A stretch of 58,444 bases of DNA, from NCBI GenBank assembly GCA_944384725.1, contig CALWUJ010000011.1, positions 1 to 58,444 on the forward strand. The letters are read 5' to 3'. This document shows positions 34,849 to 52,835 of this stretch, one piece after another (positions within the stretch are counted from its first letter, which is position 1; each line of letters opens with the position of its first letter). Below the pieces are notes generated by a model. That model had not been told where the DNA came from and made no database searches. It was given only the letters and a program-made list of their open reading frames with translations. Position numbers and translations under genes: made by a program. The DNA comes from an uncultured Agathobaculum sp. (GTDB lineage Bacteria; Bacillota; Clostridia; Oscillospirales; Butyricicoccaceae).

Positions 34849-35691
34849 ATGGTGATCCATGTTGTTCAGCCGGGAGATTCCCTGTATCGGATCTCGCAGA
34901 CGTACCAGACGCCGTTGCAGCTGCTCATTCAGCAAAACGAGCTGCGCGAGCCGTACCGGTTAACGCCCGGGCAGACGATCGTCGTGCCGCAGCCTGTGCA
35001 GGTACATACCGTTCGGCAGGGGGAGACGCTTTCCGGTATTGCCGCGCAGCACAATACAACCGTGCTGGCGCTCCTGCAAAACAATCCGCAGCTGGGCGGC
35101 GGCGACCGTATCTGGCCGGGGCAGACGCTGGTGATCTCTTACGGGCCAAAGCTGGGCACGTTTGCGGTCAATGGGTATGCTTATCCCAATATCGATCAGC
35201 GGGTGCTGCGCAAGACGCTGCCCTATCTGACGTACTTATCGGTGTTTTCTTATGGTTTTGACAGTCTGGGGCGCATTTTGCCGCAGAATGCGGAGATGCT
35301 CACGCGCATGGCGCGGCAGTACGGCGTGCTGCCGCTGCTGGTGCTGACAACGCTTGGCGAGGATGGACAATTTTCAGGAGAGCGGGCGCAGCAGCTGCTG
35401 CGCGACCCGGTCGCGCGCGGTGCGCTGATTGAGAATTTAGCGCAGACCATCGCGGCGCAGGGCTTTGCAGGCGTGGACATCGACTTTGAGTATATCCCGT
35501 CCGAGGACGCGGCCGCCTACGCCGACTTTGTCCGTGCGGTGCGCACGCGGCTGGAGCCGTCGGGGCTGACGGTGATGGTGGCGCTTGCACCCAAGACCTC
35601 AGCAAACCAGCCGGGTCTGCTGTATGAGTCGCACAACTATGCCGCGCTCGGCACAGCGGCGGACGATGTACTGCTGATGACCTATGAATAA
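34849..35691 (+). pseudogene. LysM-GH18 (SleL/YaaH-like) gene, truncated by element insertion
   Basis: The 280 residues left begin with two LysM repeats (about 2-47 and 52-97; HVVQPGDSLYRIS and HTVRQGETLSGIA). A GH18-type hydrolase follows, with the catalytic motif GVDIDFEYIP (acid/base Glu). There is no signal peptide, as in SleL/YaaH spore proteins made in the mother cell, which digest cortex N-acetylglucosamine. The family normally runs to about 430 residues. Here the reading stops just after DDVLLMTYE, where relatives continue with a Trp-Gly segment. The stop comes from element sequence that starts at about 35,690. The missing part should lie at the far end of the element, beyond this window. 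Confidence 0.8.
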
Positions 35692-35730: not shown

Positions 35731-37281
35731 CTATTCAAACCGCCGTTCAATCTGGATATAGATGGTTGCGTCGCCAGCACTGCGTTCGGCGGCGTTTTTT
35801 TCGTATGTGATGCGGCTGACTACGCTTTTCAGCAGGCCGTTTCGTTCCCGTGCGGTCGCGGCGTTGGGATAGGCTTCGATCACATGCTCCAGACGCGGCC
35901 GCATGGCAGGCGCGCCGCGGCGCTCTTGGTCGATTGTCAGCGCCCGGGCGCTGGCCTTGGCGAGTGCGCGATCCAGCTCGGCGAGCTGGCTGTCCAGTTG
36001 GCGGCGGCGTGAGACAAAATACTCCGGCGTGTAAACCTCCTGCTCGACCAGCTCGGCGGCACGGTCAAGCTGTGCGCGCAGCTTACGCTGGGCGGCGTGA
36101 ATCGCGCGGATCTCTTCGTGTGCCTGCGCGGCGCGTGCGTCCAGTTCGCGCTCGACCGTATTCTGATGGTCGATGTCCACTTCGTACTCGGCCAGCCACA
36201 GCCGCAGCGCGTGCAGCACCGCGTCCTCCACGTCGGCGCAGAATGAGCTGACATTGCTGCAATCCGCCCAGCGGCAGTCCAGCCGCCCGGTGCAGGGTAG
36301 GGCAGCGGCCGGTGCGCCGTAGGTCATCACATGACCGCACTTGGCGCAGTACAGCAGGCCGACAAACGGGTTTTTGAGTTCGTGGTTTTTCTTGAGCGGC
36401 AAGCCGGGTGTGTTGTCCAGCAGACGCTGCACGGTATCAAAATCTTCGTCACTGACGAGTGCTTCATGCAGACCGCGCGCCTTGACGTAGTCATCTACAT
36501 ACCGGCGCGGCTTGGTCAGCACGCCGTCGCGCACGGTGGGCTGCGCGGCCTTGCGTCCCCATGTCACATAGCCCGCGTACAGGCAATTGCGCAGCACGTT
36601 GTGCACGGATTGCGAACTCCACGCGATACCGGCAGAGGTGCGCTCACCGCGTGCGTTGAGACGGCAGGCAATGACATAGCAGCCGACACCTTGCAGGCGC
36701 AAGTCGAAGATCTCGCGCACGATTGCGGCCTGCGGCGGGTTTGGCTCGAGCGTGTAGCCCTTACCGTCCCGCACCTTGATGCGGAAATAACCGTAGGGGT
36801 CGGTCTTGCCCATGTATTTGCCCTCTTTGACCGAGGCGATGCGCCCCGCGATCATGCGGCGCTTGATGGTCTTATATTCGCGGCGTGACATGAACAGGCC
36901 GAACTCGAAGTATTCCTCGTCGAACTCGTTGGCGGGGTCGTAGGTTTTGGCTGGCGTGATGATGCGCGTGCCCGAGTATTTGAACGCCTGCGCGACGATG
37001 CCTTGGTCGATGCTGTCGCCGCGGGCGAGACGCTCGATCTCCATGACCAGCACGCCGTCCCACTGACCGGCCTCGACTTCGGTCAGCAGCCGCTGCATTT
37101 GCGGCCGTGCGGCGATGGTTTCGCCCGAGACGATCTCTTCGTAAATCCCGCCGATCTCCAGCCCCATGCGGCGTGCGAGTGCGAGCAGCGTGGCACGATG
37201 TCGGGCAAGGGTTTCGCCCTCGCCGCGGGCTTCGGCTTCGGCGTCCGCGCGCGATTTTCGGAGGTATATTAGATATGCCAT
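35731..37281 (-). CDS. Large serine recombinase (integrase)
   Basis: This 516-residue recombinase has a resolvase domain (about 3-150), with catalytic Ser10 in YLRKSRAD and the ME-IERLARG helix. A recombinase domain (about 165-265; DPYGYFRIKV) and a zinc ribbon (CAKCGHV, then CRWADC) lead to a long coiled coil (about 365-450), as in phage integrases such as A118 or TP901-1. The ATG at 37281 follows AAAGGTG. It lies 40 bases from the left junction and points at it, as integrase genes usually do. It should join attP and attB; excision would need a separate directionality factor, which I did not recognise. A LexA-like box lies 48 bases upstream. Confidence 0.93.
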   Translation of the reverse strand: MAYLIYLRKSRADAEAEARGEGETLARHRATLLALARRMGLEIGGIYEEIVSGETIAARPQMQRLLTEVEAGQWDGVLVMEIERLARGDSIDQGIVAQAFKYSGTRIITPAKTYDPANEFDEEYFEFGLFMSRREYKTIKRRMIAGRIASVKEGKYMGKTDPYGYFRIKVRDGKGYTLEPNPPQAAIVREIFDLRLQGVGCYVIACRLNARGERTSAGIAWSSQSVHNVLRNCLYAGYVTWGRKAAQPTVRDGVLTKPRRYVDDYVKARGLHEALVSDEDFDTVQRLLDNTPGLPLKKNHELKNPFVGLLYCAKCGHVMTYGAPAAALPCTGRLDCRWADCSNVSSFCADVEDAVLHALRLWLAEYEVDIDHQNTVERELDARAAQAHEEIRAIHAAQRKLRAQLDRAAELVEQEVYTPEYFVSRRRQLDSQLAELDRALAKASARALTIDQERRGAPAMRPRLEHVIEAYPNAATARERNGLLKSVVSRITYEKNAAERSAGDATIYIQIERRFE

Positions 37282-37327
37282 AAAATCACCTTTTTTCAGT
37301 ATATGGGGTGGGAAAATGGATAAAAAC

Positions 37328-37341
37328 AGAACATTTGTTCG
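37328..37341. promoter_or_regulatory. LexA-like box ahead of the recombinase
   Basis: AGAACATTTGTTCG matches the Gram-positive LexA consensus CGAACN4GTTCG at all but the first base. It is 47 bases upstream of the recombinase start. Confidence 0.5.
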
Positions 37342-37402
37342 GTACAAGTGGGTGTAAAAATGCAGACCACAACAAAACAGTGTTCGGTTGTGGTCTGCGG
37401 GT

Positions 37403-38341
37403 TCAATTCGGTCGGATTCCTTTTCCGTGGGCGCGTAGTTCATCAACGACTGTCTGAAAATCACGAAAGATAGAATCTTTAAGTTTTATCACATCATCTG
37501 GGCTTTGGATCGAGATACGGCTTTTGAAAATTCCAAACGATTTTGGGGATTGCTCAACGATATAGTTGGGCAGTTCTTTGGCGCATTGCTCGACAGGACG
37601 CAGACTTGTACAGTATGTAAGCCGTCCCGCATATTTTACCATACAAAATGCGGTTTTACCAATTTGAAAAGTGATAGAATCGCTGCTTTCTGTGAATGTA
37701 ATCCAATCCAGATGAATAACACCGCTCTGATAGAGGGCTTGCATAAAAGCATCATAGTAAGGCTTGGATTGTTCATAGCGGAATGCAGGAATGGGAAGTG
37801 TTTCTGGGGTAATATTGGGGCGTGGGGGTGCGATTACAATATCGTATCCCCAAACTCCGTCCTGATGCTGATAGGTTTTGATGATAAACACGCCAAAAGG
37901 TTTACGCTGCTCGATCATTTGTAGCACTTCGGCTTTTCGGTAACCGGTTTTCGGATACCAGCCGATGTATTTTTCATCAGCAGTAAATATTTTTAATGCA
38001 GTGGGGTCAACAGCATTGTTTTTGTCCCAATGGAAAAATACTTGTTGTGTTACATAGAGGTGTGGGATGATTTGTTGCGGATCGCATTTGTCATGTGGAT
38101 AGGTAATGCCCGTAGGAGAAACCAACCACATATTTTCCCAATCGAATTTTTTACGAATGGAAGGGTCTCTCTCTTCGCGTGTTTCAAGTGGAACCCGTAA
38201 GAGTGCAGAGCAGTTATTGCATATTCCGCTCCAAGAAACATAGCTGACAGGATGCTCCTGCATACAGACGGGACAAATAACAGTTTTTGTACCGCGCCGC
38301 ACATCGGTTTCGCGAGGAAACAGAAAAGAGAAAAGCCCCAT
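37403..38341 (-). CDS. Hypothetical zinc-ribbon protein in the element
   Basis: This 312-residue protein is not one I recognise. A zinc-ribbon pattern lies near the N-terminus (CPVC, then CNNC about 17 residues later). The segment DPTALKIFTADEKYIGWYPKTGYRKAEVLQMI (about 112-143) is reminiscent of a HIRAN domain, a DNA-binding module of helicases, but this is a weak match by eye. The rest has no clear motif. AAGGGGG lies ahead of the ATG. The gene is richer in A and T than its neighbours, so it is probably cargo. It lies between the recombinase and the repressor, where lysogenic cargo genes often sit. Confidence 0.6.
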   Translation of the reverse strand: MGLFSFLFPRETDVRRGTKTVICPVCMQEHPVSYVSWSGICNNCSALLRVPLETREERDPSIRKKFDWENMWLVSPTGITYPHDKCDPQQIIPHLYVTQQVFFHWDKNNAVDPTALKIFTADEKYIGWYPKTGYRKAEVLQMIEQRKPFGVFIIKTYQHQDGVWGYDIVIAPPRPNITPETLPIPAFRYEQSKPYYDAFMQALYQSGVIHLDWITFTESSDSITFQIGKTAFCMVKYAGRLTYCTSLRPVEQCAKELPNYIVEQSPKSFGIFKSRISIQSPDDVIKLKDSIFRDFQTVVDELRAHGKGIRPN

Positions 38342-38963: not shown

Positions 38964-39040
38964 TTTGCAAAACGTAAAAATACATGTTGACTTTTGCAAA
39001 ATGTGAAATTATAATATGAGCATAATAAGTTTTGCGAATT
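38964..39040. promoter_or_regulatory. Switch operators and Cro promoter
   Basis: The 10-bp palindrome TTTTGCAAAA occurs at 38964-38973 and 38993-39002, with a variant TTTTGCGAAT at 39031-39040. The promoter TTGACT-N17-TATAAT (38988-39016) for the Cro-like gene has one copy in its spacer. Confidence 0.7.
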
Positions 39041-39057
39041 GTGAAAGGAGGTGCAAA

Positions 39058-39377: not shown

Positions 39378-39772
39378 AACTTAAATTGTCTGCAAGACTG
39401 GATATCGAGCCGGATTAAATCAAGTGATGCATTCATTATGAAGTTAAATAATTCTTCATCATGAATATCGGGATGCTTTTTTAACAGGTACTCTTTGCAT
39501 GCAGAATCAAGTTGTATCAGCGTTTTAATGTTTTCACTACTGCAAAAAAGAGATGCTTTTGCAAGAGATAAAGCGACATCTGCATGTGAAATGCTTTTTT
39601 TACTGTAGAAATTAAAAATCGATTCAAGATATGCGTTGTATGCATTTACTTTTTCAGAAAAATAAGCATCGAAAAATTTTAATTTTACTGTTTTTTGTGC
39701 CGTATAGCAGGCAATGGCAATAGACCCCAAAACAGTAATACAGCATACAATTATATCTATATTAGCATCCAT
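39374..39772 (-). CDS. Hypothetical membrane-anchored protein of the element
   Basis: The 132-residue protein has one N-terminal membrane helix (about 5-22, IDIIVCCITVLGSIAIACY), then a helical cytoplasmic part without known motif. The ATG at 39772 has AAAGGA upstream and is preferred over a longer reading to 39871. It runs against its neighbours, as a lysogeny cargo gene might; a superinfection-exclusion role is only a guess. Confidence 0.6.
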   Translation of the reverse strand: MDANIDIIVCCITVLGSIAIACYTAQKTVKLKFFDAYFSEKVNAYNAYLESIFNFYSKKSISHADVALSLAKASLFCSSENIKTLIQLDSACKEYLLKKHPDIHDEELFNFIMNASLDLIRLDIQSCRQFKF

Positions 39773-39839
39773 TTGTAACACGTCCTTTCCAACTGATTTT
39801 ACCACAGGGGAAAGAAAAACGCCAGAAAGGAGGCAGATA

Positions 39840-40058
39840 ATGAGAATTGAGTTAACGGATAGTGATATCATCGAGATCTGTAAAACTATTCCGAGAGAGA
39901 TTCAGTCATCAGTAGTCAAACCTCTAATGACTGCATTTCGGAATAAAGAGATTTCAGAAGTGCAGGCAATAGCACTTATCGAGGGTTTGCGAGGCGTAGT
40001 TCTAAATGAACATTTCGCCAACCACAATTGCGAAACTGGAAAGGAAGAAAAATCATGA
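39840..40058 (+). CDS. Hypothetical early protein (72 residues)
   Basis: The reading MRIELTDSDIIEICKTIPREI... has AAAGGAGG ahead of the ATG and overlaps the next gene (ATGA). It is acidic and helical. I do not recognise a family. Its place in the tight early operon supports that it is real. Confidence 0.65.
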   Translation: MRIELTDSDIIEICKTIPREIQSSVVKPLMTAFRNKEISEVQAIALIEGLRGVVLNEHFANHNCETGKEEKS

Positions 40059-40390
40059 GTGCAATGAAAGATTACGCGCTGGGCGTTTGCGATACGCACC
40101 CGAAGGAAATGTACGATCTGTATGATCTGCTGTGCGACGGTGAACACACAGAGGAAGCCGTTGCGATGGAATTGGTCGAAAGAAATGGTGGGGACACTTA
40201 TCCCTCGCAAGATGTGTTTGAGATTATGCAGGGGATAGCTGATATTCTTGAGGATGTACCTGATGGAGAAGCTCTTGTTATGTTGGAAGTGGTTTCTTGG
40301 ATCTCGGATAACCCAGCCTTTATGGAAGAGGAGCTGTCTTACTGGAAAGAAAGGTGGATGCGGCATGAAGCTCGAGCTGTCGCATGCTGA
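40055..40390 (+). CDS. Hypothetical early protein (111 residues)
   Basis: The 111-residue, strongly acidic protein begins MSAMKDYALGVCDTHPKEMYDLYDLLCDG. It is probably all helical and I do not recognise a family. The ATG at 40055 overlaps the previous stop, with AAGGAAG upstream. Its end overlaps the next ORF by 26 bases. Small acidic early proteins are often phage modulators of host enzymes or DNA mimics, but nothing here proves either. Confidence 0.65.
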   Translation: MSAMKDYALGVCDTHPKEMYDLYDLLCDGEHTEEAVAMELVERNGGDTYPSQDVFEIMQGIADILEDVPDGEALVMLEVVSWISDNPAFMEEELSYWKERWMRHEARAVAC

Positions 40391-40574
40391 GCGAAACGCG
40401 CTGCTGGATACGGCAGGCCGTGACCGCGTCGCACTGATTGCGCAGTCTCTGCTGGAGCAGGCGAAAAAAGCAGGCTTTACCCACCTGCAAACGATTGCTG
40501 TGGTGGACTATATCCGGCGGCTTTTGGAGTCCGGGCCGTCATTCGGCGGGTTTGAGCCGCAAAGCAGGGATTGA
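40365..40574 (+). CDS. Hypothetical early protein (69 residues)
   Basis: The ATG at 40365 follows AAAGGTGG. The reading MKLELSHAERNALLDTAGRDRV then QAKKAGFTHLQTIAVVDYIRRLL is helical and soluble. No family recognised. It overlaps the gene before and is followed by the XRE regulator. Confidence 0.6.
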   Translation: MKLELSHAERNALLDTAGRDRVALIAQSLLEQAKKAGFTHLQTIAVVDYIRRLLESGPSFGGFEPQSRD

Positions 40575-40619
40575 TCTGCTATGCCCGCATTATATCACGA
40601 AAAGGAGGAAAGTACCACG

Positions 40620-41075
40620 ATGAAGGAATACCAGAATAAGTATCAGGCTGCCCGTGAGGGTGCGGGTCTGACGCAGGAAGCCGCAGCGGAGCGTTTGGGC
40701 TGGTCGGTGCGTTGTTTGCAGGACATCGAGCAGGAGAGCCGGGAGCCGTCGCCGGAGAAAGTGGCGCAGATGTCCGAAGTGTACCGTGCGCCATGGCTGC
40801 ATGGGTATTATTGCAACCGCTGTCCGTTGGGCTGTGTATGGCATCGCCCGGAGAGCGATGTGGAATTGCAGCAGCTGGCGCTTGAGGTAGGATTAGAGGC
40901 CGAAGACGGGGAACAGGAGCACCGGGACGCACACGAGCTGGCGCGGATCGCGCTCGACCGCAAGATTGACGACGAGGAGTTCCCAAAGTTTCAGGCTATT
41001 CTTGGCCGTATGCTGCGCCGGGCTTACTTGACCGAAATGGCGTGGATTGCCAGTCTGACGCAAGTGGAAAAGTGA
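40620..41075 (+). CDS. XRE-family regulator of the early operon
   Basis: This 151-residue protein has an N-terminal helix-turn-helix (AREGAGLTQEAAAERLGWSVRCLQDIEQESREPSPEKVAQMSEVY, about 10-55). A CNRCPLGC motif (about 63-70) could bind a metal. A helical C-terminus follows. AAAGGAGG lies ahead of the ATG at 40620. It is an additional regulator besides CI and Cro and might control the tail genes. Similar HTH-plus-Cys proteins are common in prophages of gut Clostridia. Confidence 0.75.
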   Translation: MKEYQNKYQAAREGAGLTQEAAAERLGWSVRCLQDIEQESREPSPEKVAQMSEVYRAPWLHGYYCNRCPLGCVWHRPESDVELQQLALEVGLEAEDGEQEHRDAHELARIALDRKIDDEEFPKFQAILGRMLRRAYLTEMAWIASLTQVEK

Positions 41076-41115
41076 CCAAGCCCTGATGAATACAATACCC
41101 AGAGGAGGTGTGCTT

Positions 41116-41346
41116 ATGGCAAACAAAACACGTAGGCTGGTCATGGAGCAGGAATTCACGCTGAAAAGCGGCCGCAAAGCCGTCTGCCAGATCTACGATA
41201 CCGAGGATACCGTGCCGAAGTCCAACGTCGAAGAGCACAAGAAGTGCGTCGATCACATGAAGGAGGTCGCCGCGAATATCTTCATGCGCGCGGAAATGGC
41301 AAAACAGCAAAAGGAAAGCGCCCAGTGCGGCGGCAACCGCGACTGA
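41116..41346 (+). CDS. Hypothetical early protein (76 residues)
   Basis: GAGGAGG lies about 9 bases before the ATG. The reading MANKTRRLVMEQEFTLKSGRKAVCQIYDTEDTVP then a basic/acidic helix is small and soluble. No family recognised. Confidence 0.6.
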   Translation: MANKTRRLVMEQEFTLKSGRKAVCQIYDTEDTVPKSNVEEHKKCVDHMKEVAANIFMRAEMAKQQKESAQCGGNRD

Positions 41347-41428
41347 GCGCAAATCAAATTAGACTACTTACAGGATACCGGAAAAGCCCGGCGCTGTCAA
41401 GAGGGCCGCGCCGGGGGAAAGGGAAAGT

Positions 41429-41629
41429 ATGAAACTCGTAGAGGTGAAATTTGAGATCCCGGAGGATCTGGAGCCGCGCATTGCGGCGTTAGCTGCGGAA
41501 ATGGGGCTATCTTTTGATTTGGCCGCGCAACTGCTGCTGTGGGATGGATATGCCACGCACTTGCGCAGCTCGATCGAGCGGGCGGAAAGAGAACTGCGAG
41601 AGCAATTGACAGGGGAGGTGGCGGTATGA
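41429..41629 (+). CDS. Hypothetical early protein (66 residues)
   Basis: The reading MKLVEVKFEIPEDLEPRIAALAAEMG then a helix looks like a ribbon-helix-helix-type small protein (one strand then two helices). This is a guess from pattern. It overlaps the next start (ATGA). Confidence 0.55.
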   Translation: MKLVEVKFEIPEDLEPRIAALAAEMGLSFDLAAQLLLWDGYATHLRSSIERAERELREQLTGEVAV

Positions 41630-41733
41630 TCTACGCCATCCTCGCTATGCTCGGGGTGGGCTGCGCCTACCTCGCCCTTGGCATGCTGGTGGACAGGCTC
41701 ACCCAGCCGATGGAAAGGCGGTGGCGCAGGTGA
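41626..41733 (+). CDS. 35-residue membrane protein
   Basis: The ATG overlaps the previous stop and GGGAGG lies 8 bases upstream. The reading MIYAILAMLGVGCAYLALGM is one membrane helix with a basic end (MERRWRR). It is coupled to the next gene through GTGA. Confidence 0.55.
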   Translation: MIYAILAMLGVGCAYLALGMLVDRLTQPMERRWRR

Positions 41734-42368
41734 GACGGTTTACACCGGATGAAATGGCAGAGATTCGGGACAGCTATCGCAATGCGGCAAATCCTAAAAA
41801 GCAGATTGGCATCCTTTCCGATTTGTACGACTGCGCCGAGCAGGACATCCAGCAGGCGCTTGGCCTGCCGGTGACACCGGCCAAGCCCAAGCCCTCAACG
41901 GGTAGAAAGAAAAAGCGGGCGTATGTGCAGTGGCAGAAAGATCAGGTAGCGCAGCTGTGTGAGCTGTACGAGAAGGGCTATAAGCTGGTGGACATTGCCG
42001 ATATGCTGGGCATTCCGTTGGAGCGCGTAAAAAAGAAGGTGTTCAATATGGGGACTGCAGGCCAGCTGACGCTGCGGTCGCATCGGCAAAAGTCGAAACC
42101 GCAGAAAGTGCCGACGGAGCAGAACCGACAGGAAAAACAGCGTGAGACGCAGCTTGTGACGGCATCGGGTGCGGAGGAGCGCAGCAGCGACGTGCACGTG
42201 CTGTTGCAGGATTACTTCTCTCGCATTGGAGAACCGTCAACGGCTGACGATTGCAATTTCCCGTCAGTTCCGCATGCACTGTTTGAGCTGGATCAACTTC
42301 TCACCCGTGCCGCGGCATTGGTTTATGCACTGCGCGTTCTGGCCGAGAAGGGAGGCGGCGCGCCATGA
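41730..42368 (+). CDS. Helix-turn-helix protein of the element
   Basis: The 212-residue protein has a helix-turn-helix near residues 70-115 (QVAQLCELYEKGYKLVDIADMLGIPLERVKKKVFNMGT), of the kind seen in small terminase-like or sigma-type phage regulators. A basic Gln/Lys-rich linker and a helical C-terminus follow. I chose GTG 41730, which overlaps the previous stop and has AAAGG about 11 bases upstream; the GTG at 41721 is too close to that site. It could be a late-gene regulator. A terminase small subunit is an alternative, but no large subunit follows. Confidence 0.6.
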   Translation: MRRFTPDEMAEIRDSYRNAANPKKQIGILSDLYDCAEQDIQQALGLPVTPAKPKPSTGRKKKRAYVQWQKDQVAQLCELYEKGYKLVDIADMLGIPLERVKKKVFNMGTAGQLTLRSHRQKSKPQKVPTEQNRQEKQRETQLVTASGAEERSSDVHVLLQDYFSRIGEPSTADDCNFPSVPHALFELDQLLTRAAALVYALRVLAEKGGGAP

Positions 42369-42748
42369 TGTTCCAGTTTAATACAGCTATCGCCAGCATC
42401 ACCGGAAACGGGGATGAGGCGGCATTCGTACACCATATTTGGTACTGGGTTGTATGGAATCGTGCGCGGGAGAAAAATCTGCGGGACGGAAAGTATTGGA
42501 CATATTCCAGCTTGCAGGACTTTTGTAAAGATGGTTTGTTCGATTATCTCACCCCACGCCAGATAGAGCGGATCATACGCAACTGCGTTGCGAAAGGATT
42601 GATCGAGACAGCTTGCTATAACGAGGATGGACGCGATCAGACCAAGTGGTACACAGTTACCGATTTGGTTCTTTGCATTTGCTGCAAGACGAGGTCGAGC
42701 GCTGGGGCGACGAGATGGCTGCAAGACTGGAGGGACGATAAATGCTGA
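42365..42748 (+). CDS. Truncated replication-type protein fused out of frame at a deletion scar
   Basis: The first 100 or so residues (AAFVHHIWYWVVWNRAREKNLRDGKYWTYSSLQDFCKDGLFDYLTPRQIERIIRNCVAKGLIE...KWYTVTD) match the winged-helix N-terminal domain of phage replication initiators. The rest (LVLCICCKTRSS...) is not protein-like. In another frame the same bases from about 42,664 read SLHLLQDEVERWGDEMAARLEGR and stop exactly at the ATG of the tail gene. Two broken genes therefore meet here. The ATG overlaps the previous stop (ATGA). The protein may be made but is unlikely to work in replication. Confidence 0.75.
   Translation: MMFQFNTAIASITGNGDEAAFVHHIWYWVVWNRAREKNLRDGKYWTYSSLQDFCKDGLFDYLTPRQIERIIRNCVAKGLIETACYNEDGRDQTKWYTVTDLVLCICCKTRSSAGATRWLQDWRDDKC
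42664..42741 (+). pseudogene. 3' remnant of a gene upstream of the tail terminator
   Basis: The frame ending at TAA 42739-42741 reads a soluble helix (LLQDEVERWGDEMAARLEGR). It carries the ribosome site GGAGGG of the next gene and abuts its ATG, as intact phage genes do. No start exists in this frame. It is probably the end of a head-tail joining protein. Confidence 0.6.
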
Positions 42749-43209
42749 AAATCAAAGAGATCATGGACGGGATCAACGCTATCCTCGTCCGGCTCTACCC
42801 TGACCGCGCGGTGTACGTCGATGTGCTGCCCGAGCAGTTCGAGCGGCCGAGCTTTTTCCTGCGTCCGGAGGGGCGCAAGATCACCTCGCGCACGGCGGCG
42901 GTGGTCGAGGTCGAGCAGATGATCACGGTACAGTGCGCCGATGAGGTAGGCGACCGGTACGAAACCCAAACCGCCCGCCTGTACGACGTGACCGAAACGC
43001 TGACCGCTGCGTTTTTGCAGCGCGGCGCGCTTCATTGCGGCGACCGGCATCTGACCGCCGACCGCGTCGATGTGTCGCGGTCGCTTGACATCGCGGATGT
43101 GACAATCACCGTGATTTACGAGGATGACCGCCCGGCAGCGCCCATCACGCAGCCGCTCATCACGGACGTGGCTTTCGGCGCGCAGCCGAGCCAGACAAAG
43201 GAGGAATAA
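42742..43209 (+). CDS. Phage tail terminator family protein
   Basis: This 155-residue protein is of the tail-terminator/completion type that precedes the sheath gene in PBSX-like clusters. It has an IKEIMDGINAILVRLYPDRAVYVDVLPEQFERPSFFL segment and the VVEVEQMITVQCADE strand pair. It should cap the tail tube and end sheath assembly. GGAGGG lies ahead of the ATG. It is the first intact structural gene; nothing for a head lies upstream. Confidence 0.8.
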   Translation: MLKIKEIMDGINAILVRLYPDRAVYVDVLPEQFERPSFFLRPEGRKITSRTAAVVEVEQMITVQCADEVGDRYETQTARLYDVTETLTAAFLQRGALHCGDRHLTADRVDVSRSLDIADVTITVIYEDDRPAAPITQPLITDVAFGAQPSQTKEE

Positions 43210-43212
43210 GGC

Positions 43213-44268
43213 ATGGGACTGCCTTCGATTGATATTTCATTCCAGACCGCCGCGCAGCTGACGATCGCCATGGGCGACAAGGGCTATGTCGGCGTGATCG
43301 TGCGCGACACCACGCAGACGGGCGCGCACTACCTGCCGCGCGTGGGCAAAATCCCCGAAGCGCTCAGCGAGGAAAACCGCGCCTACCTGACGCGCACCTT
43401 CCTCGGCTACATCAACCCGCCCAAGGCGGTGTATCTGTATGTCACCGACGCGGAGGATACAAACCTCGCCAAGGCGCTCGCGTACTTTGAGACGCAGGAG
43501 GTCGATTATCTGGTCGGCCCGCCCGATCTGACCGAGGACGAAGCGCAGGCGATGGTGATGTGGCTCAAGGAGGTGCGCGCGGCGCACAGCCATATCAAGT
43601 GCGTGCTGCCCAAGACGGTGGCGGACTATGACCCGGTCATCAACTTCGACGCGGACGGCATGACCGACGGCGAGGACGATTTCACGGCGGCGCAGTACTG
43701 CTCGCGCATGGCGGGCCTGATTGCGGGCACGCCGTGGACGATGAGCGCGACCTACGCGCCGCTGCCCGAGCTGACCGACATCACCCGGCTGGACAAGGAG
43801 ACAGCGGACGCCGCCATTGACGCGGGCAAGCTGATCCTCATCCACGACGGGCGGCAGGTTAAAATCGCGCGAGCGGTTAACTCACTAACCACGACCCTGC
43901 TTGACCACGGCGCGATTTTTCAGAAGATCAAGGCGCTGGAGGTCATCGACCGCGTGGACGCGGACTTCCGCGCGACCATCGAGGACACCTTTATCGGCAA
44001 GTTCGCCAACACCTACGACAACCGCATGCTGCTCGTGACGGCAGGCCGCAGCTATTTCCAGACGCTGGAGGCGGCGGGCATTCTGCTTGAGGGCGGCTCG
44101 TCGCTCGACATCGACACCGAGGCCGTGCGCGATTATCTGGGAGACGCGGGCGAGGAGATGAGCGATGACGAGCTGCGACACGCGGACACCGGCTCGCATG
44201 TGTTCCTCGTGGGCAAGTTCACGATCGTGGACGCGATCGAAGATGTCACGATGCATATCACGGTATAA
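43213..44268 (+). CDS. Contractile tail sheath protein (XkdK-like)
   Basis: The 351-residue protein (MGLPSIDISFQTAAQLTIAMGDKGYVGVIVRD...) is a short-form tail sheath of the XkdK class. The C-terminal third (DYLGDAGEEMSDDELRHADTGSHVFLVGKFTIVDAIEDVTMHITV) is the conserved sheath domain that knits subunits together. The sheath shortens to drive the tube through the target envelope. AAAGGAGG precedes the ATG. It proves a contractile tail. Confidence 0.93.
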   Translation: MGLPSIDISFQTAAQLTIAMGDKGYVGVIVRDTTQTGAHYLPRVGKIPEALSEENRAYLTRTFLGYINPPKAVYLYVTDAEDTNLAKALAYFETQEVDYLVGPPDLTEDEAQAMVMWLKEVRAAHSHIKCVLPKTVADYDPVINFDADGMTDGEDDFTAAQYCSRMAGLIAGTPWTMSATYAPLPELTDITRLDKETADAAIDAGKLILIHDGRQVKIARAVNSLTTTLLDHGAIFQKIKALEVIDRVDADFRATIEDTFIGKFANTYDNRMLLVTAGRSYFQTLEAAGILLEGGSSLDIDTEAVRDYLGDAGEEMSDDELRHADTGSHVFLVGKFTIVDAIEDVTMHITV

Positions 44269-44283: not shown

Positions 44284-44727
44284 ATGAGTGCAAGCATGGA
44301 TTCTGCTTCGCGCGTCATTTCGGGTACGCACGGGCAGGCGTGGATGGACGATGAGCTGTGCGGCGAGACGCTCGGTATGCAGGCCAAGGTCGCAGCAAAC
44401 AAAGAGGAAGTGCCGATGTGCTGCCAGTTCATGGTAGATACCAAGCTGATGAGCGCCAAGGGCACGGGCACGATTCGTTTCCACAAGGTCAATTCCCGCA
44501 TGGCGATCAAGATGAGCGACAACCTGAAAGCGGGCAAGGACACGCGCGTCAAGCTGATCTCGTTGCTCGACGACCCGGATTCCTACGGCGCAGAGCGCGT
44601 GGTCATTTACGACGCATCGTTTGATGACCTGACGCTCGCGGACTGGGAGCTGGCTTCTAAGGGTCAGATCGAGTGTCCGTTTACGTTCACCAAATGGGAT
44701 TTTCTTGATTTGATTCAGCCACGATAA
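44284..44727 (+). CDS. Tail tube protein (XkdM-like)
   Basis: This 147-residue protein is an XkdM-like tail tube. It has GTHGQAWMDDELCGETLGMQAKVAANKEEV and the GTGTIRFHKVNSR strand. GGGGAGG lies ahead of the ATG. It is made in many copies to form the inner tube inside the sheath. Tail tubes are also what some SIR2 defence proteins (DSR2) detect, which is of note because a SIR2 protein lies in this same element; any link is speculation. Confidence 0.93.
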   Translation: MSASMDSASRVISGTHGQAWMDDELCGETLGMQAKVAANKEEVPMCCQFMVDTKLMSAKGTGTIRFHKVNSRMAIKMSDNLKAGKDTRVKLISLLDDPDSYGAERVVIYDASFDDLTLADWELASKGQIECPFTFTKWDFLDLIQPR

Positions 44728-44742
44728 CAGGAGGAAACGATT

Positions 44743-45147
44743 ATGACAGAGAAAAAGCAAAATCCTAACCCGACCACGGTCGAACGCCTGCTGGGCGCAT
44801 GCAAGCGTGCACCCGTTGAGCAGCTTTTACAGTTTAAGAGCTGGACGGACGCGGACGGCAATCCGGTCGTGTTCCGCATCCGCGAGCTGAACTTTAACAA
44901 GGTGCGCGAGATCCAGCAGATGTCGAGCGGCGCAGATTTTGCCGCGGCGATCATCACGGCGGGCGTGGTCGAACCCAACCTGCGCGACGAGCGTTTGCAG
45001 CAGGCGTGCGGCGCAGTAACGCCATACGAGGTGGTGCGTAAGATGCTGCGCGCGGGTGAGATCGAGGACTTGCAGGCCGCGATCGAGAAGCTGTCCGGTT
45101 ACCGCGGCTCTACGCTGCAGATCTTGGCGGACATCGAAAAAAACTGA
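44743..45147 (+). CDS. Tail assembly chaperone, short form (XkdN-like)
   Basis: The 134-residue protein is XkdN-like (MTEKKQNPNPTTVERLLGACKRAPVEQLLQF...). It corresponds to lambda gpG: it coats the tape measure before tube assembly. AGGAGG precedes the ATG. Its final codons are GAA AAA AAC TGA, so a slippery heptamer sits right at the stop. A longer form is made by -1 frameshift (next entry). Confidence 0.9.
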   Translation: MTEKKQNPNPTTVERLLGACKRAPVEQLLQFKSWTDADGNPVVFRIRELNFNKVREIQQMSSGADFAAAIITAGVVEPNLRDERLQQACGAVTPYEVVRKMLRAGEIEDLQAAIEKLSGYRGSTLQILADIEKN

Positions 45148-45353
45148 GAGAGGACGACGAGACGTTTTTGATGTACCTGCTCTTTCGGCAGCATCACGTC
45201 TTGCCGTCCGACTATCTGAAGCTCCCGCCCGGCGAGAAGCTGGTGCTGCAAGCGTTTGTCATGGCCGAGTGCCTGCCCAAGGCGCTCGAGGGCATCCGCT
45301 GGCGGGCGGAGAGCGAAAAACTGCACCGGGAGGAGGCCGCCGCCCATGCCTGA
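44743..45353 (+). CDS. Tail assembly chaperone, -1 frameshift product (G-T type)
   Basis: A -1 shift at A-AAA-AAC (45138-45144) passes the TGA and enters a frame that is open to 45353. It adds about 69 residues (LREDDETFLMYLLFRQHHVLPSDYL...). The product would have about 203 residues. The added part has no ribosome site of its own and ends 8 bases inside the tape-measure gene. This is the conserved G/GT arrangement of long-tailed phages. The downstream part also resembles the short XkdN-second ORF of Clostridia prophages. Confidence 0.8.
45138..45144 (+). promoter_or_regulatory. Slippery heptamer for -1 frameshift
   Basis: A AAA AAC is in the zero-frame phase needed for -1 slippage (GAA AAA AAC), immediately before the TGA stop. 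Confidence 0.8.
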
Positions 45354-47556
45354 CGTTTCGATTGCGCTGAGCGCGAAGGACAAGGTTTCATCCATTCTGA
45401 AAAAGGTCGGCCAGATTTCGGGCGAAACCGCCGACGAGATCGATAAGCTGCAGGACAGCCTGGACACGCTTTCGAGCGCAAAGGTAGACCTGAAAACCAA
45501 TCTGGACAAGGTTCGCCAGCAGGTGAGCGAGGCGCGCAAGGAGTTCCGCAAGCTGGGCGACTCGGTCAGCGAGCAGAATTACAAGGATAAGCTGTCCGAG
45601 CTGGAAAAGCTCGAGCAGCAGTATTATGCGGTGTCCAAGAGCATCCGCATGGTGGAAAACGAGGAAACCTCGCTTGCGGGTACGCGCAGCAAGCTGTCCA
45701 ACCGCGAAGCGGGCGGCAGCTCCGGCTCAATGCTGGGCACGGTTGGCTCGGCGCTGGCGACTGCGGGCTTTGGCGACATGCTGAGCAATAGCCTGTCCGG
45801 TGCGGCGGGAGCGTTCTTCGGCTCATACTACGGCACGACCGATGGTGCGGCGATTCAGTCTGTGCTGGGCAGTGCAATCTCGGGTGCTACCATGGGTGCG
45901 TCCGCAGGCATGATGGTAGGCGGCCCAGCGGCAGCCGGGATTGGTGCGGCAGTCGGTGGGTTAGTTGGCGCGGTGTCCGGCGGCATCGAGGCCGCAACAC
46001 AGAAATTTGAAAGCCGCGACGAGGCGTTCAAAAGCTATGTGCAGGATCGGTACAACGCCGTGCAGGAGCGTCGTGACGAAGAATTATCCGGCGGAAGCTC
46101 GATTGCAGGTCAGCGTGAGATGGATCAAATGGCTTTTACAACGCTATTCGGCAATGCTGATACAGCGCAAAACTATTTGGAACAAGTTAGAGTGATGGGC
46201 GCTGAAACGCCATTTCAGTATGAGGATTTGACACAAATCAGTCGAACCTTAACTGCGTTTGGATATTCTGTGGACGAACTAATTCCAACCATGACAGCAC
46301 TTGGTGATGCCGGTTCTGCAAATGGAATGACTACGGATGCGATAAACGAAATGGCGCAAGCACTTGGCTATATGCGGTCATCTAATTTGGTTTATCGTGA
46401 GCAATTGGGCATTTTCCAGCGTCGAGGCGTTGATGCGGCAGGTGCCGTGGCAGAGGCAAAGGGTATGAGCATTGACGAAGTGTACTCTGCGATTACGCGG
46501 GGCGACTTAGGCGGTGTGGAAATATCTGAAATTCTGACAAAGTATATGGAAGAAACTTATCAAGGTGCAATGGATATCCAATCCAAGACCTTTGAGGGTT
46601 TAGCGTCTACGTTAGAGGATGCAAATGCTGAACTGCAAAATGCGGCGGGTAGAGGTTATAACGAGGAAAAGAAAATCGGCATGTCCGACCAGATCGACTG
46701 GCTCGAAGGCGAAGCCGGGCAGAAGATGATGGAGATGAACGAGCAGATAGGCCGGGCAAAAGCTGAGGCGGAAAATCTCCAGCAGCAAATGTATCAGGAT
46801 GTGTTCAACGGTATGTTCAACGGCGAAATTCCTGCGGATATGGATGCCCGAATTGCGGCGCAGGTCGAAGATTTGCACCAGCGATACATGAATGCAATGG
46901 CTACCATCGAAAGTTCAGTATCATCCAATGAAGAGGTGTTTGCAGCAAGCGAAGAATTAGCCACGCTCAAGGGTGCGGCAGAGGAGCTTGCTTACAATAC
47001 TTATATGACTTCCGACGCAGCTGACACGATGACAGCCGCTAATATCGCTTTGGCAGATAGTATCGCCGCCAGTGCTGGGGATGCATATGAAAATGCGGGC
47101 TATTCGGTTAGCGAAAAGCTGACGCAAGGCATCACCCGTCACATTAACAGCTATACACCGCCACCGATTAAAGTGCCGGTGCTGTACGAAAGTGTATCTA
47201 CCAGCGGCGGTATTGCTGCGGGCGCATCTGCTCGCACGTCGATCGGTACGTCTAGCGGCACAATCACCAGCTCGCACCTGACCGGCACAACCACAGGCTC
47301 GCACCTGACCGGCGCGACCTCGCCCTATCGTGCCATCGGCGAAGACCGCGTGCCGCGTGACAACATGCTCTATCTGCTGCACGAGGGCGAGCGCGTGCTG
47401 ACCGCGCGCGAAGTGCGGGCGCAGGATCAGGGCGGCACGGGCGGCGTCAACATCTACATGGGCGGCAACTACACCGTTCGGCAGGACAGCGACATCGGCG
47501 CGATCGCCGAGGCGGTCGCGGCGCGTATCATGGCGCAGGTGCGTATTCTGCGCTGA
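45346..47556 (+). CDS. Tail tape measure protein
   Basis: The 736-residue protein sets tail length. It has an N-terminal coiled coil (about 15-110), a Gly/Ala-rich hydrophobic stretch (about 125-220), a long helical middle and a C-terminal end with VPRDNMLYLLHEGERVLTAREVRAQ, a motif typical of this class. Length predicts a tail near 110 nm by the usual 0.15 nm per residue. GGGAGG precedes the ATG at 45346. Bases about 46,080-47,060 are visibly richer in A and T than both sides, so the middle was probably swapped in. Confidence 0.92.
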   Translation: MPDVSIALSAKDKVSSILKKVGQISGETADEIDKLQDSLDTLSSAKVDLKTNLDKVRQQVSEARKEFRKLGDSVSEQNYKDKLSELEKLEQQYYAVSKSIRMVENEETSLAGTRSKLSNREAGGSSGSMLGTVGSALATAGFGDMLSNSLSGAAGAFFGSYYGTTDGAAIQSVLGSAISGATMGASAGMMVGGPAAAGIGAAVGGLVGAVSGGIEAATQKFESRDEAFKSYVQDRYNAVQERRDEELSGGSSIAGQREMDQMAFTTLFGNADTAQNYLEQVRVMGAETPFQYEDLTQISRTLTAFGYSVDELIPTMTALGDAGSANGMTTDAINEMAQALGYMRSSNLVYREQLGIFQRRGVDAAGAVAEAKGMSIDEVYSAITRGDLGGVEISEILTKYMEETYQGAMDIQSKTFEGLASTLEDANAELQNAAGRGYNEEKKIGMSDQIDWLEGEAGQKMMEMNEQIGRAKAEAENLQQQMYQDVFNGMFNGEIPADMDARIAAQVEDLHQRYMNAMATIESSVSSNEEVFAASEELATLKGAAEELAYNTYMTSDAADTMTAANIALADSIAASAGDAYENAGYSVSEKLTQGITRHINSYTPPPIKVPVLYESVSTSGGIAAGASARTSIGTSSGTITSSHLTGTTTGSHLTGATSPYRAIGEDRVPRDNMLYLLHEGERVLTAREVRAQDQGGTGGVNIYMGGNYTVRQDSDIGAIAEAVAARIMAQVRILR

Positions 47557-47583: not shown

Positions 47584-48348
47584 ATGTCCATCACAGGCGG
47601 CATCATCATCGGCGGCGCCGTCATCGGCAATATGGTCGGCACGCTGGCCGCCCAACAGGCGGCAGCCTATCGCCCCCGCAAGCGCCGCATCATTTTCGTT
47701 AACCTGACCACCGGACAGGAGGTCGTGCTGCCGGTCACGCCCAAGGAATATATCATCGACCGCGGCGTGAACATCGAGACGGTCAACCTCACCGGCTTCG
47801 GGGACGTGCATCTCGCGGGCGACCGCACGCTGTTCACCGAGCGGCTGGAGTTCATGCTGCCCGTGCAGGCGTACCCCTTTAACGACCCGACCACGGTGCT
47901 GGAGCCGTTCCATTATATCGACTTTTTCGAGCTGACGAGCGACAACAAGCAGGTGTGCCGGTTCATCGTCTCGGACAGCCGCACGCAGTGCGAGGTGCTG
48001 CTGGAAAACCTGCAATACCGCCAGCAGGAGGGCACGGGTGATTACTACTGCGTGTTGACCATGCGGCGGCACCGTCAGCCGAACCCCGTGCGACTGGTGG
48101 GTGACGAGGGCACGTCCTCCGGACAAACGGCGACCGTGTCCACACCCGCCCGCGCAACCACAACGCCCGCGCAGACTGCGGTGCAGAACCACACGGTGCA
48201 GCCGGGGGACACACTTTCCGGCATCTGCCGCAAGTATTACGGCAACGCGAACCTATACCCCAAACTCGCCGCCTATAACGGCATCCCCAATCCCAACCTC
48301 ATCTACGACGGGAGCGTTCTCAAAATCCCGCCCGCGTCGGCGCTGTAA
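47584..48348 (+). CDS. LysM tail protein (XkdP-like)
   Basis: The 254-residue protein has an N-terminal structural domain (RRIIFVNLTTGQEVVLPVTPKEYIIDRGVNIETVNLTGFGDVHLAGDRTL) and a C-terminal LysM (HTVQPGDTLSGICRKYYGNANLYPKLAAYNGI). It sits at the base of the tail and probably binds peptidoglycan. AAAGGAGG lies ahead of the ATG. Order after the tape measure is as in PBSX. Confidence 0.92.
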   Translation: MSITGGIIIGGAVIGNMVGTLAAQQAAAYRPRKRRIIFVNLTTGQEVVLPVTPKEYIIDRGVNIETVNLTGFGDVHLAGDRTLFTERLEFMLPVQAYPFNDPTTVLEPFHYIDFFELTSDNKQVCRFIVSDSRTQCEVLLENLQYRQQEGTGDYYCVLTMRRHRQPNPVRLVGDEGTSSGQTATVSTPARATTTPAQTAVQNHTVQPGDTLSGICRKYYGNANLYPKLAAYNGIPNPNLIYDGSVLKIPPASAL

Positions 48349-48362
48349 AGGGGGCGGGAACT

Positions 48363-49370
48363 ATGGAGCAATACCAATATGTGCACCCGTGGGTGCATGT
48401 TCGCAATGACCAGGGCGAGTGGGACGTGTCGCACATGTTCCGGCGCATCGCATGGTCGGGCGACGTGGACAGCGTGTGCCGGTCACTCGAACTGGAGATG
48501 ATTGTCTCGGCCACCGACCCGCGTTTGCCCTACGTCTATCTGCCGCTTGCGGGCGGCATTTCGATGGGCGTGGGCGATCAGACGCTGTTTGCCGGGGTGG
48601 TGGCCAGCAAGGACAAATCAACCGACGCATCCACGATGTCGGTCACCTGCTACGACTTCGGTTTTTATCTGAAGAACAGCCGCGCGAGCCGCAAGTACAC
48701 GGGCGAGACGCCCGAAACCATCACACGGCAGCTGTGCAGCACTTATGGCGTGCCGGTCGGGTCGCTGGCGCAGACGGGCGTCGCCATTCGGCGCAAGTTT
48801 TCGGCCACCGAGGTTTACCGCATCATCGACACGGCCTACACGCTGGCGAGCCAGCAAACCGGCAAGAAGTATCTGCTGCGGTTTTCCGGGCTGCGGCTGA
48901 ATGTCATCGAGCGCACGGTGACGCCGCAATCCGTGATTTTGCAGCGCGGGACGAATTTGCAGACCGCGACCTACGGTGAGAGCATCGAGAACATGAAAAA
49001 CCGCGTCATCATCGTGAACAGCGACGGCAACTTTGTGCGTGAGATTTCCGACAACCCAGCGGTCAAACGGTACGGCCTGCTGGCCGACGTGCTGACGCAG
49101 TCGGACGGCGAGGACGCGACCGCCGAGGCAAAAGAAATCCTCGCGGACAATGGCGTCGAGCGGCGCGCCAGCGTGACCTGTCTTGGGCATACCAAACTCA
49201 TCACCGGCAACACGATTTATATTGTCGAGCCTTACACTGGCCTTGCGAACACCTGCTGGATCGACGAGGACACGCACGTCTGGCAAAACGGGGTGTACAC
49301 CTGCCGCCTGACGCTGAATTTCAAGAACGAGATGCGCGAGAGCGAGAGCGGAAGCGAGGTGGAGACATGA
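48363..49370 (+). CDS. Baseplate hub protein (XkdQ-like)
   Basis: This 335-residue protein matches XkdQ, the hub protein related to gpD/gp27. Features include VHVRNDQGEWDVSHMFRRIAWSGDVDSVCRSLELEM and the LGHTKLITGNTIYIVEPYTGL end. It forms the ring that joins tube and baseplate. AAAGGGGG precedes the ATG. It overlaps the next gene by 4 bases. Confidence 0.9.
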   Translation: MEQYQYVHPWVHVRNDQGEWDVSHMFRRIAWSGDVDSVCRSLELEMIVSATDPRLPYVYLPLAGGISMGVGDQTLFAGVVASKDKSTDASTMSVTCYDFGFYLKNSRASRKYTGETPETITRQLCSTYGVPVGSLAQTGVAIRRKFSATEVYRIIDTAYTLASQQTGKKYLLRFSGLRLNVIERTVTPQSVILQRGTNLQTATYGESIENMKNRVIIVNSDGNFVREISDNPAVKRYGLLADVLTQSDGEDATAEAKEILADNGVERRASVTCLGHTKLITGNTIYIVEPYTGLANTCWIDEDTHVWQNGVYTCRLTLNFKNEMRESESGSEVET

Positions 49371-49642
49371 GCCAGGTAGCCGAGTTGGCACGCTGCCTGC
49401 CCGACCCAAACGCAGCGAAGGCCAATGGCACGGGCGCGGCGCTGATGTTCGGCCACGTGACAAAGGACACCCAGCACGACGGTGAGGTCGCGGTGCAGGC
49501 GGACGGTTTGCCCCTCGATGAGGACGATTTGGGCTTTGCAGCTGGCTTGCGGCGCGGCGTTTCGCGCGGCGACCGTGTGCTGCTGCTGCGCTCGGCAGAC
49601 CGGCAGCACTACGATGTGCTGCTCATCATGGAAGGAGGGTAA
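49367..49642 (+). CDS. Baseplate protein, DUF2577 family
   Basis: The 91-residue protein (VAELARCLPDPNAAKANGTGAALMFGHVTKD) belongs to DUF2577, between XkdQ and XkdS in PBSX-type clusters. It is probably the hub spike's small partner. Its ATG overlaps the XkdQ stop. Confidence 0.85.
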   Translation: MSQVAELARCLPDPNAAKANGTGAALMFGHVTKDTQHDGEVAVQADGLPLDEDDLGFAAGLRRGVSRGDRVLLLRSADRQHYDVLLIMEGG

Positions 49643-49645
49643 GCC

Positions 49646-50086
49646 ATGGCCGAGGAAAGTATTTTCCCGTTTTTGCAGCCGACGGCAGCCGCCCCGGCAG
49701 CAGAGCTGCCCGTGCTGCGCGAGTGCGCGTGGGATTTTGCAAACGACGTTCCCATCTTGCGGCAGGGCGTGCCGGTCGTGGTCGAGCGGGCGGAGGCGGT
49801 TGCGGTGTGGGCGTGGAACGCGCTGCACACCGAGCGGTTTCTCTGGCCATGCTTTTCGTCGAACTACGGCAACGAAACCTACATGCTGATTGGGCAGGGC
49901 TATCAGGCGGAGACCAAGCGCGCCGAGGTGCAGCGCTACATCGAAGAGTGCTTGCTCGCCTGTCCTTATATCACAGCGGTGACCGGCACGACGATCGCCG
50001 TGGTGGGCGACCGGCTCACGGCCGGCTTTGCCATCCAAAGCGTGTACGGTGAGGTGAAAATGGAGGTGGAAACCGATGTCGGATAA
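49646..50086 (+). CDS. Baseplate wedge protein (XkdS-like, DUF2634)
   Basis: The 146-residue protein matches DUF2634 (gp25-like). It has the YMLIGQGYQAETKRAEVQRYIEECLLACPYITAV segment. It helps start sheath assembly on the baseplate. GGAGGG lies ahead of the ATG. Overlaps the next gene by 11 bases. Confidence 0.88.
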   Translation: MAEESIFPFLQPTAAAPAAELPVLRECAWDFANDVPILRQGVPVVVERAEAVAVWAWNALHTERFLWPCFSSNYGNETYMLIGQGYQAETKRAEVQRYIEECLLACPYITAVTGTTIAVVGDRLTAGFAIQSVYGEVKMEVETDVG

Positions 50087-51233
50087 AACCGAAACGCTGC
50101 AAACGCAGCTGGACGCGCTGAAAGCGACCCTGCTTGCGCAGGACTTCGACAGCCTGACGCCCGAGAGCATCCAAGACATGCTGCGCGCCTTTCTCTCGGA
50201 CGAGCTGGGGCTGTACACGGGCGAGGGAAGTCTGCTGCAAATCATCCTTGCACCCGGCGCGTATGTGTTCTGGGAGGGCTTGCAGGCGCTGCGCGCGCAG
50301 GTGCCGATTTCGTTTGTGGACGAGACGAGCGGGCGCTTCATCGACAAAAACGCGGCGGGCTACGGCATCACGCGCAAGCCCGGCACGGTGGCGAGTGTTC
50401 TGCTGACTTTCACCGGCTCTGCGGGTACGACCGTTCCGGCGGGCACGCTGTGCGTCACGCAGGACGGGCTGGGCTTTGCGACCGACGAAGCGCTGACGCT
50501 GGACGAGGACGGCCGCGGCACGGTCACGGCGACGGCGGACGCGGTCGGCACGGCGTATAACGTCCCCGCGGGCGCGATTGTCAGCATGCAGCAGGCAGTG
50601 AGCGGTGTGACCGCCCTCACCAACGAAGAAGCCGCCGCGGGCGGCACCGATCCGGAGACGGACGCGGCACTGTTTGCCCGTCTGGACGCATACAAAAAGA
50701 CGCCGCCGACCTCGGGGAACGACCGGCACTATCACCAGTGGGCGCTTGCGGTCAACGGTGTGGGCGCGGCATCGGTCATCCGTTGCTGGGACGGGCCGGG
50801 CACGGTCAAGGTCATCATCGCGGACATGGCGCTGCGGCCCGTGGAAGAGGAGCTGCGCGCCGAAGTCGCGGCCTACATCGAGACGCAGCGGCCGGTCACC
50901 GCCGAGGTGACGGTCGAGAGCGCGGCGGGTGTGCCGGTTACGGTCAGTGTAACGGTGACCACGGATGGAACGGTGTCCAAATTGAACACCGAAAAGGAGT
51001 TAACCGAACGGCTGGCTGAATATCTGGGCGAGATCGCGTTCACCGAGGGTGCAGAGGTGGTGTACAACCGTGTGCTGGCGCTTGTGATGGGCTTGCCGGG
51101 CGTGACCGACTGCGCGGATCTGCTGGTGGGCGGCGGCACGGATAATGTGCCGCTGGACGCGAATGAAATCCCGATGCTTGGCACGGTGACGGTAAACGGC
51201 ATCGCAGAGGAGGCATCAGACGATGGCGCGTAA
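50076..51233 (+). CDS. Baseplate J family protein (XkdT-like)
   Basis: The 385-residue protein is a baseplate J/gp47 wedge. It has KNAAGYGITRKPGTVASVLLTFTGSAGTTVPAGTLC, then GTDPETDAALFARLDAYKKTPPTSGNDRHYHQWALAVNGVGAASVI, the family's signature. It forms the arms of the baseplate. Full length. Confidence 0.93.
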   Translation: MSDKTETLQTQLDALKATLLAQDFDSLTPESIQDMLRAFLSDELGLYTGEGSLLQIILAPGAYVFWEGLQALRAQVPISFVDETSGRFIDKNAAGYGITRKPGTVASVLLTFTGSAGTTVPAGTLCVTQDGLGFATDEALTLDEDGRGTVTATADAVGTAYNVPAGAIVSMQQAVSGVTALTNEEAAAGGTDPETDAALFARLDAYKKTPPTSGNDRHYHQWALAVNGVGAASVIRCWDGPGTVKVIIADMALRPVEEELRAEVAAYIETQRPVTAEVTVESAAGVPVTVSVTVTTDGTVSKLNTEKELTERLAEYLGEIAFTEGAEVVYNRVLALVMGLPGVTDCADLLVGGGTDNVPLDANEIPMLGTVTVNGIAEEASDDGA

Positions 51234-52825: not shown

Positions 52826-52835
52826 GGTGATACAA

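Follow-up and report, generated by a model that had tools for sequence, protein, structure and literature searches.

The window, by which we mean the whole stretch of 58,444 nucleotides analysed here, is contig C11 of an Agathobaculum genome (G000; 1.94 Mb in 47 contigs, 78.5% complete). A prophage-like element begins in it at about position 35,689, in the middle of a LysM-LysM-GH18 host gene which we take to be YaaH/SleL-like and whose 5' half (34849..35688, + strand; Pfam LysM and GH18) ends at attL, with a core of about TATGAAT. As the first-pass annotation had stated, the element still carries its integrase, a large serine recombinase (35731..37464, - strand; PF07508, PF00239 and phrog_95) with 95.8% identity to that of the relative G018. 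Its true start is likely the ATG that gives a protein of about 516 aa, as in the 516-aa G018 ORF. Two divergent regulators (38541-38912, - strand, and 39016-39294, + strand; phrog_8, 5e-20, and HTH_3) probably serve in lysogeny control, and a promoter-like site matching the consensus at 11 of 12 positions lies between them (38987-39015). By consensus scanning, promoter-like sites number 11 where 7.2 are expected and terminator-like sites 4 where 7.0 are expected, counts so close to chance that the scans decide little. The early genes follow (39714..42368, + strand; PHROGs), including a regulator (40581-41075) and a helix-turn-helix (HTH) protein (41721-42368) which has a weak match of 56 positions to phrog_7067, 'terminase small subunit' (1.3e-4).

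The ORF at 42365-42748, present as listed by the ORF program, is where the early genes meet the tail genes. It had been read at first pass as the N-terminus of a replication protein joined out of frame to a 3' gene remnant whose stop abuts the next ATG, and comparison with relatives confirmed this on both sides. A Pfam scan of the ORF gave no match. Residues 4-101 match replication-initiation PHROGs (phrog_11233, 5.6e-21, profile positions 5-99 of 297) and also phrog_6493, a DnaD-like helicase loader; as the match is confined to these residues, the ORF is an N-terminal fragment of a replication-initiation gene (42365..42680, + strand, 105 codons). The whole counterpart in G020:C3 has 237 aa and is 96% identical over 106 residues, and the DNA match to it (94% over 396 bases) runs from 42,285 to 42,680 and stops there, which marks the left deletion end. 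On the right, six relative loci (one each in G018 and G006, two in G015, and L026 and L027 from IMG/VR) match the window from 42,677 or 42,680 on, with 79-91% DNA identity; the match to G005 begins at 42,740. In all six, the gene before the tail terminator (the pre-terminator gene) has an open frame of 162-345 codons whose stop directly adjoins the ATG of the tail terminator, whereas the window frame is open over 39 codons only. What the window retains is a 3' remnant of 19 codons and a stop (42680..42741, + strand), with GGAGGG at 42729-42734 before the next ATG and the C-terminal end EVxxWGxxxAxRLxG(R/K) found in all six relatives. From its position and by reading, the gene may be labelled gp10-like; in G018 it has a PHROG match of unknown function only.

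Base-level comparison with G020 on the left and the six loci on the right thus located both ends of the deletion and placed the joint at 42680..42681, with one shared base, T 42680. The frame of the remnant differs from that of the replication fragment, and a fusion protein of the two was therefore ruled out. As expected of a defective prophage, each side of the joint is part of a gene whose whole form exists in relatives. The joint was seen in one of 87 family genomes (species representatives; up to 7 candidates scored per genome), namely G000 itself; the joined ORF, which as an intact conserved gene would speak against a deletion, was seen in none of the other 86. Among viral_contigs, the exact 28-base joint pattern was not found, the replication fragment had distant matches only (3 loci, 43%), and the HTH protein had one short match of 20 residues. 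Since both halves have whole counterparts in relatives, we read the joint as a deletion, which is very probably real as far as the contig can show and is most simply read as a one-event cut.

To the right of the joint, all on the + strand, lie the tail terminator (42742..43209; PF20765), tail sheath (43213..44268; PF04984, PF17482 and phrog_1480, 4e-106), tail tube (44284..44727; PF09393), an XkdN-like tail assembly chaperone (44743..45147; PF08890) and the tape measure protein (45256..47556; PF20155). Genes for a LysM protein, a YqbQ-like hub, a small protein (49367-49642, without a family match), the sheath initiator, baseplate J and Gp48 occupy 47584..51762, and tail fibre genes occupy 51764..53438 (PF12571; phrog_1348 weakly, 5.5e-4). 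The segment 53194..55711 encodes a CmpB-type membrane protein (PF06541), a holin (53898-54383; PF05105) and an amidase (54380-55711; PF01520), the latter two matching nearly whole Pfam profiles. The contractile tail proposed earlier and a lysis module are thus present as Pfam and PHROG families from 42,742 on, and the tail is complete, as in tailocins, from terminator, sheath, tube, chaperone and tape measure to hub, initiator, baseplate and fibre. The four closest sheath loci in genome_contigs are from Agathobaculum (89-91% identity), two from MAGs and two from one genome; a search of 'phages' for near-identical sequence, with 20 kb of the element as query, gave no match.

The last gene in the window encodes a SIR2-like/TPR protein (55836..58444, + strand; SIR2_2 just below cut-off), which runs off C11 and resumes on contig C15 (C15:1-645). 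The final 77 bases of C11 are found again at C15:64-140, within the same TPR array, and the open frame at C15:1-645 reads as the end of the SIR2-TPR protein. C11 and C15 therefore most likely adjoin at the TPR repeat, a join inferred from these sequences and spanned by zero single contigs. The host gene continues at C15:722-1156 with its 3' half. Both flanks have TATGAA and, when they are joined, the interrupted gene is restored in frame as in skin-like elements, giving a 425-aa ORF without stops that is 94.8% identical to the intact gene of G010. The right end of the element is thus near C15:721, its length is at least about 23.3 kb, and the SIR2-TPR gene alone lies between the end of C11 and attR. 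With this far end found on C15, there is no evident room for hidden head genes, and the idea that they lie past the contig end was rejected. The SIR2-TPR protein has partial-length PADLOC matches to SIR2-pAgo-type and PDC-S65 models, with no system established, and as last gene of the prophage it is a possible defence cargo.

The absence of head genes from the element, also claimed at first pass, was confirmed among the scanned ORFs between 35,731 and 58,442 (some of them with one library): apart from the weak phrog_7067 match, none matched a Pfam or PHROG head-gene family, so that capsid, portal and terminase are missing, as in tailocins. With C11 apparently continuing to attR on C15, the element does not carry the missing genes at another place, again as in a defective prophage. 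Their place can be seen in G018, where the order, in window orientation, is replication gene, helicase, several ORFs, small and large terminase subunits, portal, head protease, major head protein, two connectors, pre-terminator gene, tail terminator and sheath. PHROG assignments in this block cover the terminase subunits, the portal, the protease and the head protein, along with adaptor or closure proteins. Between the positions that correspond to the deletion ends lie about 16.8 kb in G018 and about 15.4 kb in G005; as the G018 head and packaging genes fall there, about 16.8 kb is missing in the window. The terminase genes of the relatives G006:C19 and G005 have an in-frame stop in the matched stretch, and that of G018 has none.

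A search of the rest of the genome for head genes with PF05065, PF04860 and one large-terminase (TerL) query matched C15:24253-28596 and nowhere else; this is a second prophage. The same genome has a third sheath-like match, a divergent one (C37:10077-10688; 55 bits, in a 441-aa frame), and other head families are possible beside it. We considered whether the joint could be an assembly artefact, either two prophages wrongly joined or a stretch collapsed in what is probably a contig from a metagenome. It is known as contig sequence from one draft genome, 78% complete and in 47 contigs, and it is unique, all of which would fit such an artefact. Assembly-graph errors usually need long shared words. 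Only one base is common to both sides at the joint, whereas the real break of C11 does have a long shared word, the 77 bases in the TPR array. Moreover, where terminase, portal and capsid are matched elsewhere in the genome, they belong to the C15 prophage and are of another type (terminase 31% identical). We consider an artefact very unlikely.

Another alternative is a satellite which brings its own tails and borrows heads and packaging from the C15 prophage; the integrase gene of that prophage is about 8.6 kb away from the right end of the element. That prophage is contractile and has terminase, portal, capsid and sheath, and parts of its early region are 87-95% alike to the element's. However, its sheath is its own and only about 25-27% identical to the element's, no second copy of the element's joint was found, and bringing tails instead of redirecting genes offers no obvious gain. 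A satellite of this kind appears extremely improbable.

We conclude that the element is probably a defective contractile (myovirus-type) prophage and a possible maker of DNA-free tails. A serine recombinase integrated the prophage into the YaaH/SleL-like host gene, and comparison with relatives shows that more than half of the replication gene was lost together with the helicase, terminase, portal, protease, capsid and connectors, and with most of the pre-terminator gene. One non-homologous deletion of about 15-17 kb is the simplest account of this loss. The product, so far as the assembled contigs can tell, is a headless contractile prophage in which the tail and lysis genes now stand directly after the early operon, and in which the tail terminator has kept its likely ribosome-binding site, GGAGGG. 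Upon induction, an early promoter could read into the tail genes, the tail terminator would cap tube and sheath, and holin and amidase would lyse the cell; DNA-free contractile tails would be freed and could puncture related cells. The element would have lost the ability to replicate and to package its own DNA, though excision may still be possible. That it makes functional tails has, in our view, close to an even chance.

The constraint on the tail genes bears on this last point. Tail proteins align with those of G018 at or near full length, except Gp48 (147 of 179) and the fibre. Eleven tail-gene stretches were compared (of the tape measure gene the 3' part only, of gp48 the first 146 codons), and in the window none of them contains a stop. 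When single-base codon changes were polarised with G006 as outgroup, the window lineage had 26 nonsynonymous and 160 synonymous changes and the G018 lineage 32 and 154. With G015 as outgroup the figures were 13/110 for the window and 25/113 for G018, three genes being missing where the contig piece ended. Constraint on the tail genes thus resembles that in G018, a relative with head genes, and may be older than the deletion.

Plain decay would accept the same deletion as a stage in the decay of a prophage already dead, with tails intact only since the deletion is recent and no particle that benefits the host; it would deny only that the tails are used. The scar is unique to G000, and deletions in congeneric prophages do not spare the tail. 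In G020:C3 (L072:6922-8778) a 618-aa ORF joins a DnaB-like helicase in frame to the C-terminal portion of a major head protein, with no match to tail queries nearby; in G021:C58 the portal runs into the sheath at residue 116; in G019:C11 a terminase piece adjoins a tape-measure piece; and in G012:C67 the terminase is cut and the portal missing. As deletions are so frequent in these prophages, the two that spared the tail, in the window and in G010, may be chance survivors. On the other side, the tail-gene stretches compared are unbroken and constrained, holin and amidase match nearly whole profiles, the tail-sparing layout also occurs in G010 and a headless tail locus in G050:C34. We judge plain decay a serious possibility, somewhat short of an even chance.

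To see how often heads are lost, we searched the 87 family genomes with a sheath profile, which gave 48 loci; 38 were analysed and 10 partial or divergent sheaths (at most 114 bits) were dropped. With our own head-gene profiles, 19 of the 38 showed a terminase; these profiles miss other head types, as in G035, whose locus has terminase, portal and head protein, and G038, with a head protein of another kind. Four contigs were too short upstream for judging (G020:C58, G055:C126, G085:C55 and G071:C4). Nine loci of genus g13 and one of G070 have a capsid-like gene and no terminase in the examined stretch, six of the g13 loci with at least 5.8 kb before the capsid. No head gene was found despite ample upstream sequence in three loci, those of the window, G010:C19 and G050:C34. 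Within Agathobaculum, terminase is present in 11 of 14 sheath loci, two are headless and one could not be judged.

The G010:C19 locus resembles the window in that early genes are joined to a C-terminal part of the pre-terminator gene, followed by the tail module. Its order is replication gene, helicase, a small ORF like one on C15 of G000 (86% DNA identity) and the pre-terminator part, then terminator, sheath, tube, tape measure, hub, initiator, baseplate and Gp48 to the contig end. The pre-terminator piece has 55% aa identity to G024, whose own piece weakly matches phrog_5, 'tail completion or Neck1' (0.002). Nothing was found with our head profiles in the rest of the contig, and the terminase query, PF05065 and PF04860 had no match anywhere in this genome (82% complete). 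Unlike the window, G010 has kept replication gene and helicase, an adjacent ORF reads like a tyrosine integrase, the sheath has about 25% identity to the window's, and the tail is of the C15 type (81% DNA identity). As the tail types differ, we take the two deletions as independent events. The third locus, G050:C34 (L182:2172-13794), has a full contractile tail with the tail terminator first and lies apparently between host genes, with host-like genes before and restriction-modification-like genes after it by ORF reading. No integrase, head or lysis genes were recognised in it by reading, and PF05065 and PF04860 are absent from that genome; it is a possible end state of head loss.

These cases suggest a wider reading, in which deletions from the early genes into the pre-terminator gene (two cases, two tail types) repeatedly turn Agathobaculum contractile prophages into headless tail makers, a snapshot of tailocin birth in Bacillota. 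Since the tail maker in the window still interrupts a spore-cortex-type gene as an intervening element, its excision and tail production could follow host development. We offer this reading tentatively and consider it unlikely as a whole.

Other head and tail arrangements were also seen. In a sister genus, all 9 of 9 genomes (L173, in G078:C29, and L174-L181) have a cluster of capsid-like gene, tail terminator, sheath and tube, the capsid-like gene of G078 matching phrog_422 (2e-49). LysM protein and hub follow in 8 and initiator and baseplate in 7, the rest being off the contigs, and no terminase or portal was found in the examined stretches. The tube and LysM genes of G078 are separated by only about 0.6 kb, and a tape measure therefore seems absent. 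In G015, extra partial copies of the large terminase subunit (C22:13877-15034; L080) lie beside the full one.

Tailocins are thought to arise from prophages that lose head and replication genes, and the first step is rarely visible. In the window, the scar can be read to the base, a related head-bearing prophage occupies the same site and a second case exists in the genus. Whether the head went first, ahead of integrase and early genes, and whether the tails are used thereby become directly testable questions. The first-pass annotation had proposed a headless, tailocin-like tail element, possibly at an early step in domestication; the deletion is well supported and tail and lysis modules are present, whereas a working tailocin and a step of domestication are conjectural. 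Tailocins have lost integration and replication genes, whereas here the serine recombinase and early genes are kept, the replication gene is cut and the helicase is gone. A tailocin locus would also be expected to persist across strains or species; as the scar was found in one of 87 family genomes, we do not regard the element as a fixed tailocin, and there is no sign that the scar was maintained by selection. No late regulator or SOS control came to light in the element, and its standing as a domesticated tailocin so far lacks support.

The PBSX particle packages host DNA in a head, which makes PBSX a poor comparison. Diffocin, the R-type system of C. difficile, has contractile sheath and tube, baseplate and fibre, and no head genes, in all of which the window's element is alike. 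In strain CD630, diffocin is a cluster of 25 genes (PMC6088184). Unlike diffocin, the element keeps serine integrase, regulators and early genes, has a readable scar, was not found in other species and is a candidate only for particle production and killing. Clostridial 'R-type tailocin' prophages, in a review on solvent-producing clostridia (PMC10538166), are likewise contractile with a lysis module, one type having a resolvase-type integrase. They are said there to retain capsid genes, as Gram-positive tailocin prophages do unlike those of Gram-negatives, whereas the window's element has no head genes. A review of contractile systems describes domestication via loss of phage genes and states that pyocins kill better than headless phage mutants (PMC10598620). 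The related Agathobaculum prophage G018:C8 shares the integration site and has an integrase 95.8% identical to the element's; of eleven tail proteins ten are 86-98% identical, and the tape measure is so at 71%. It differs in having replication, packaging and head modules and a different tail fibre.

As in skin, SPbeta/spsM and gin/gerE, a serine recombinase element sits within a coding gene of the host, and the two halves of this gene can be rejoined in frame; unlike in these, the gene is YaaH/SleL-like and the element is a candidate only for sporulation-linked, programmed excision. In open-licence literature on intervening elements, yaaH was not mentioned and sleL appeared once, in PMC9604106; neither name is present in PMC5595907. 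Agathobaculum and prophage are named together in three papers of this literature, once each. Judged by open-frame length in 25 congeneric species, the YaaH/SleL-like gene is apparently interrupted at the same place in 9, at another place in 2, intact in 13 and incomplete in 1. This gene is a recurrent integration site and possibly a skin-like switch. In all six 5' ends read, the break lies at or within a few bases of TATGAA, and five matching 3' ends were read. The same serine recombinase lies beside the break in four others, 83-98% identical to the window's, and in a fifth as its last 25 residues at a contig end.
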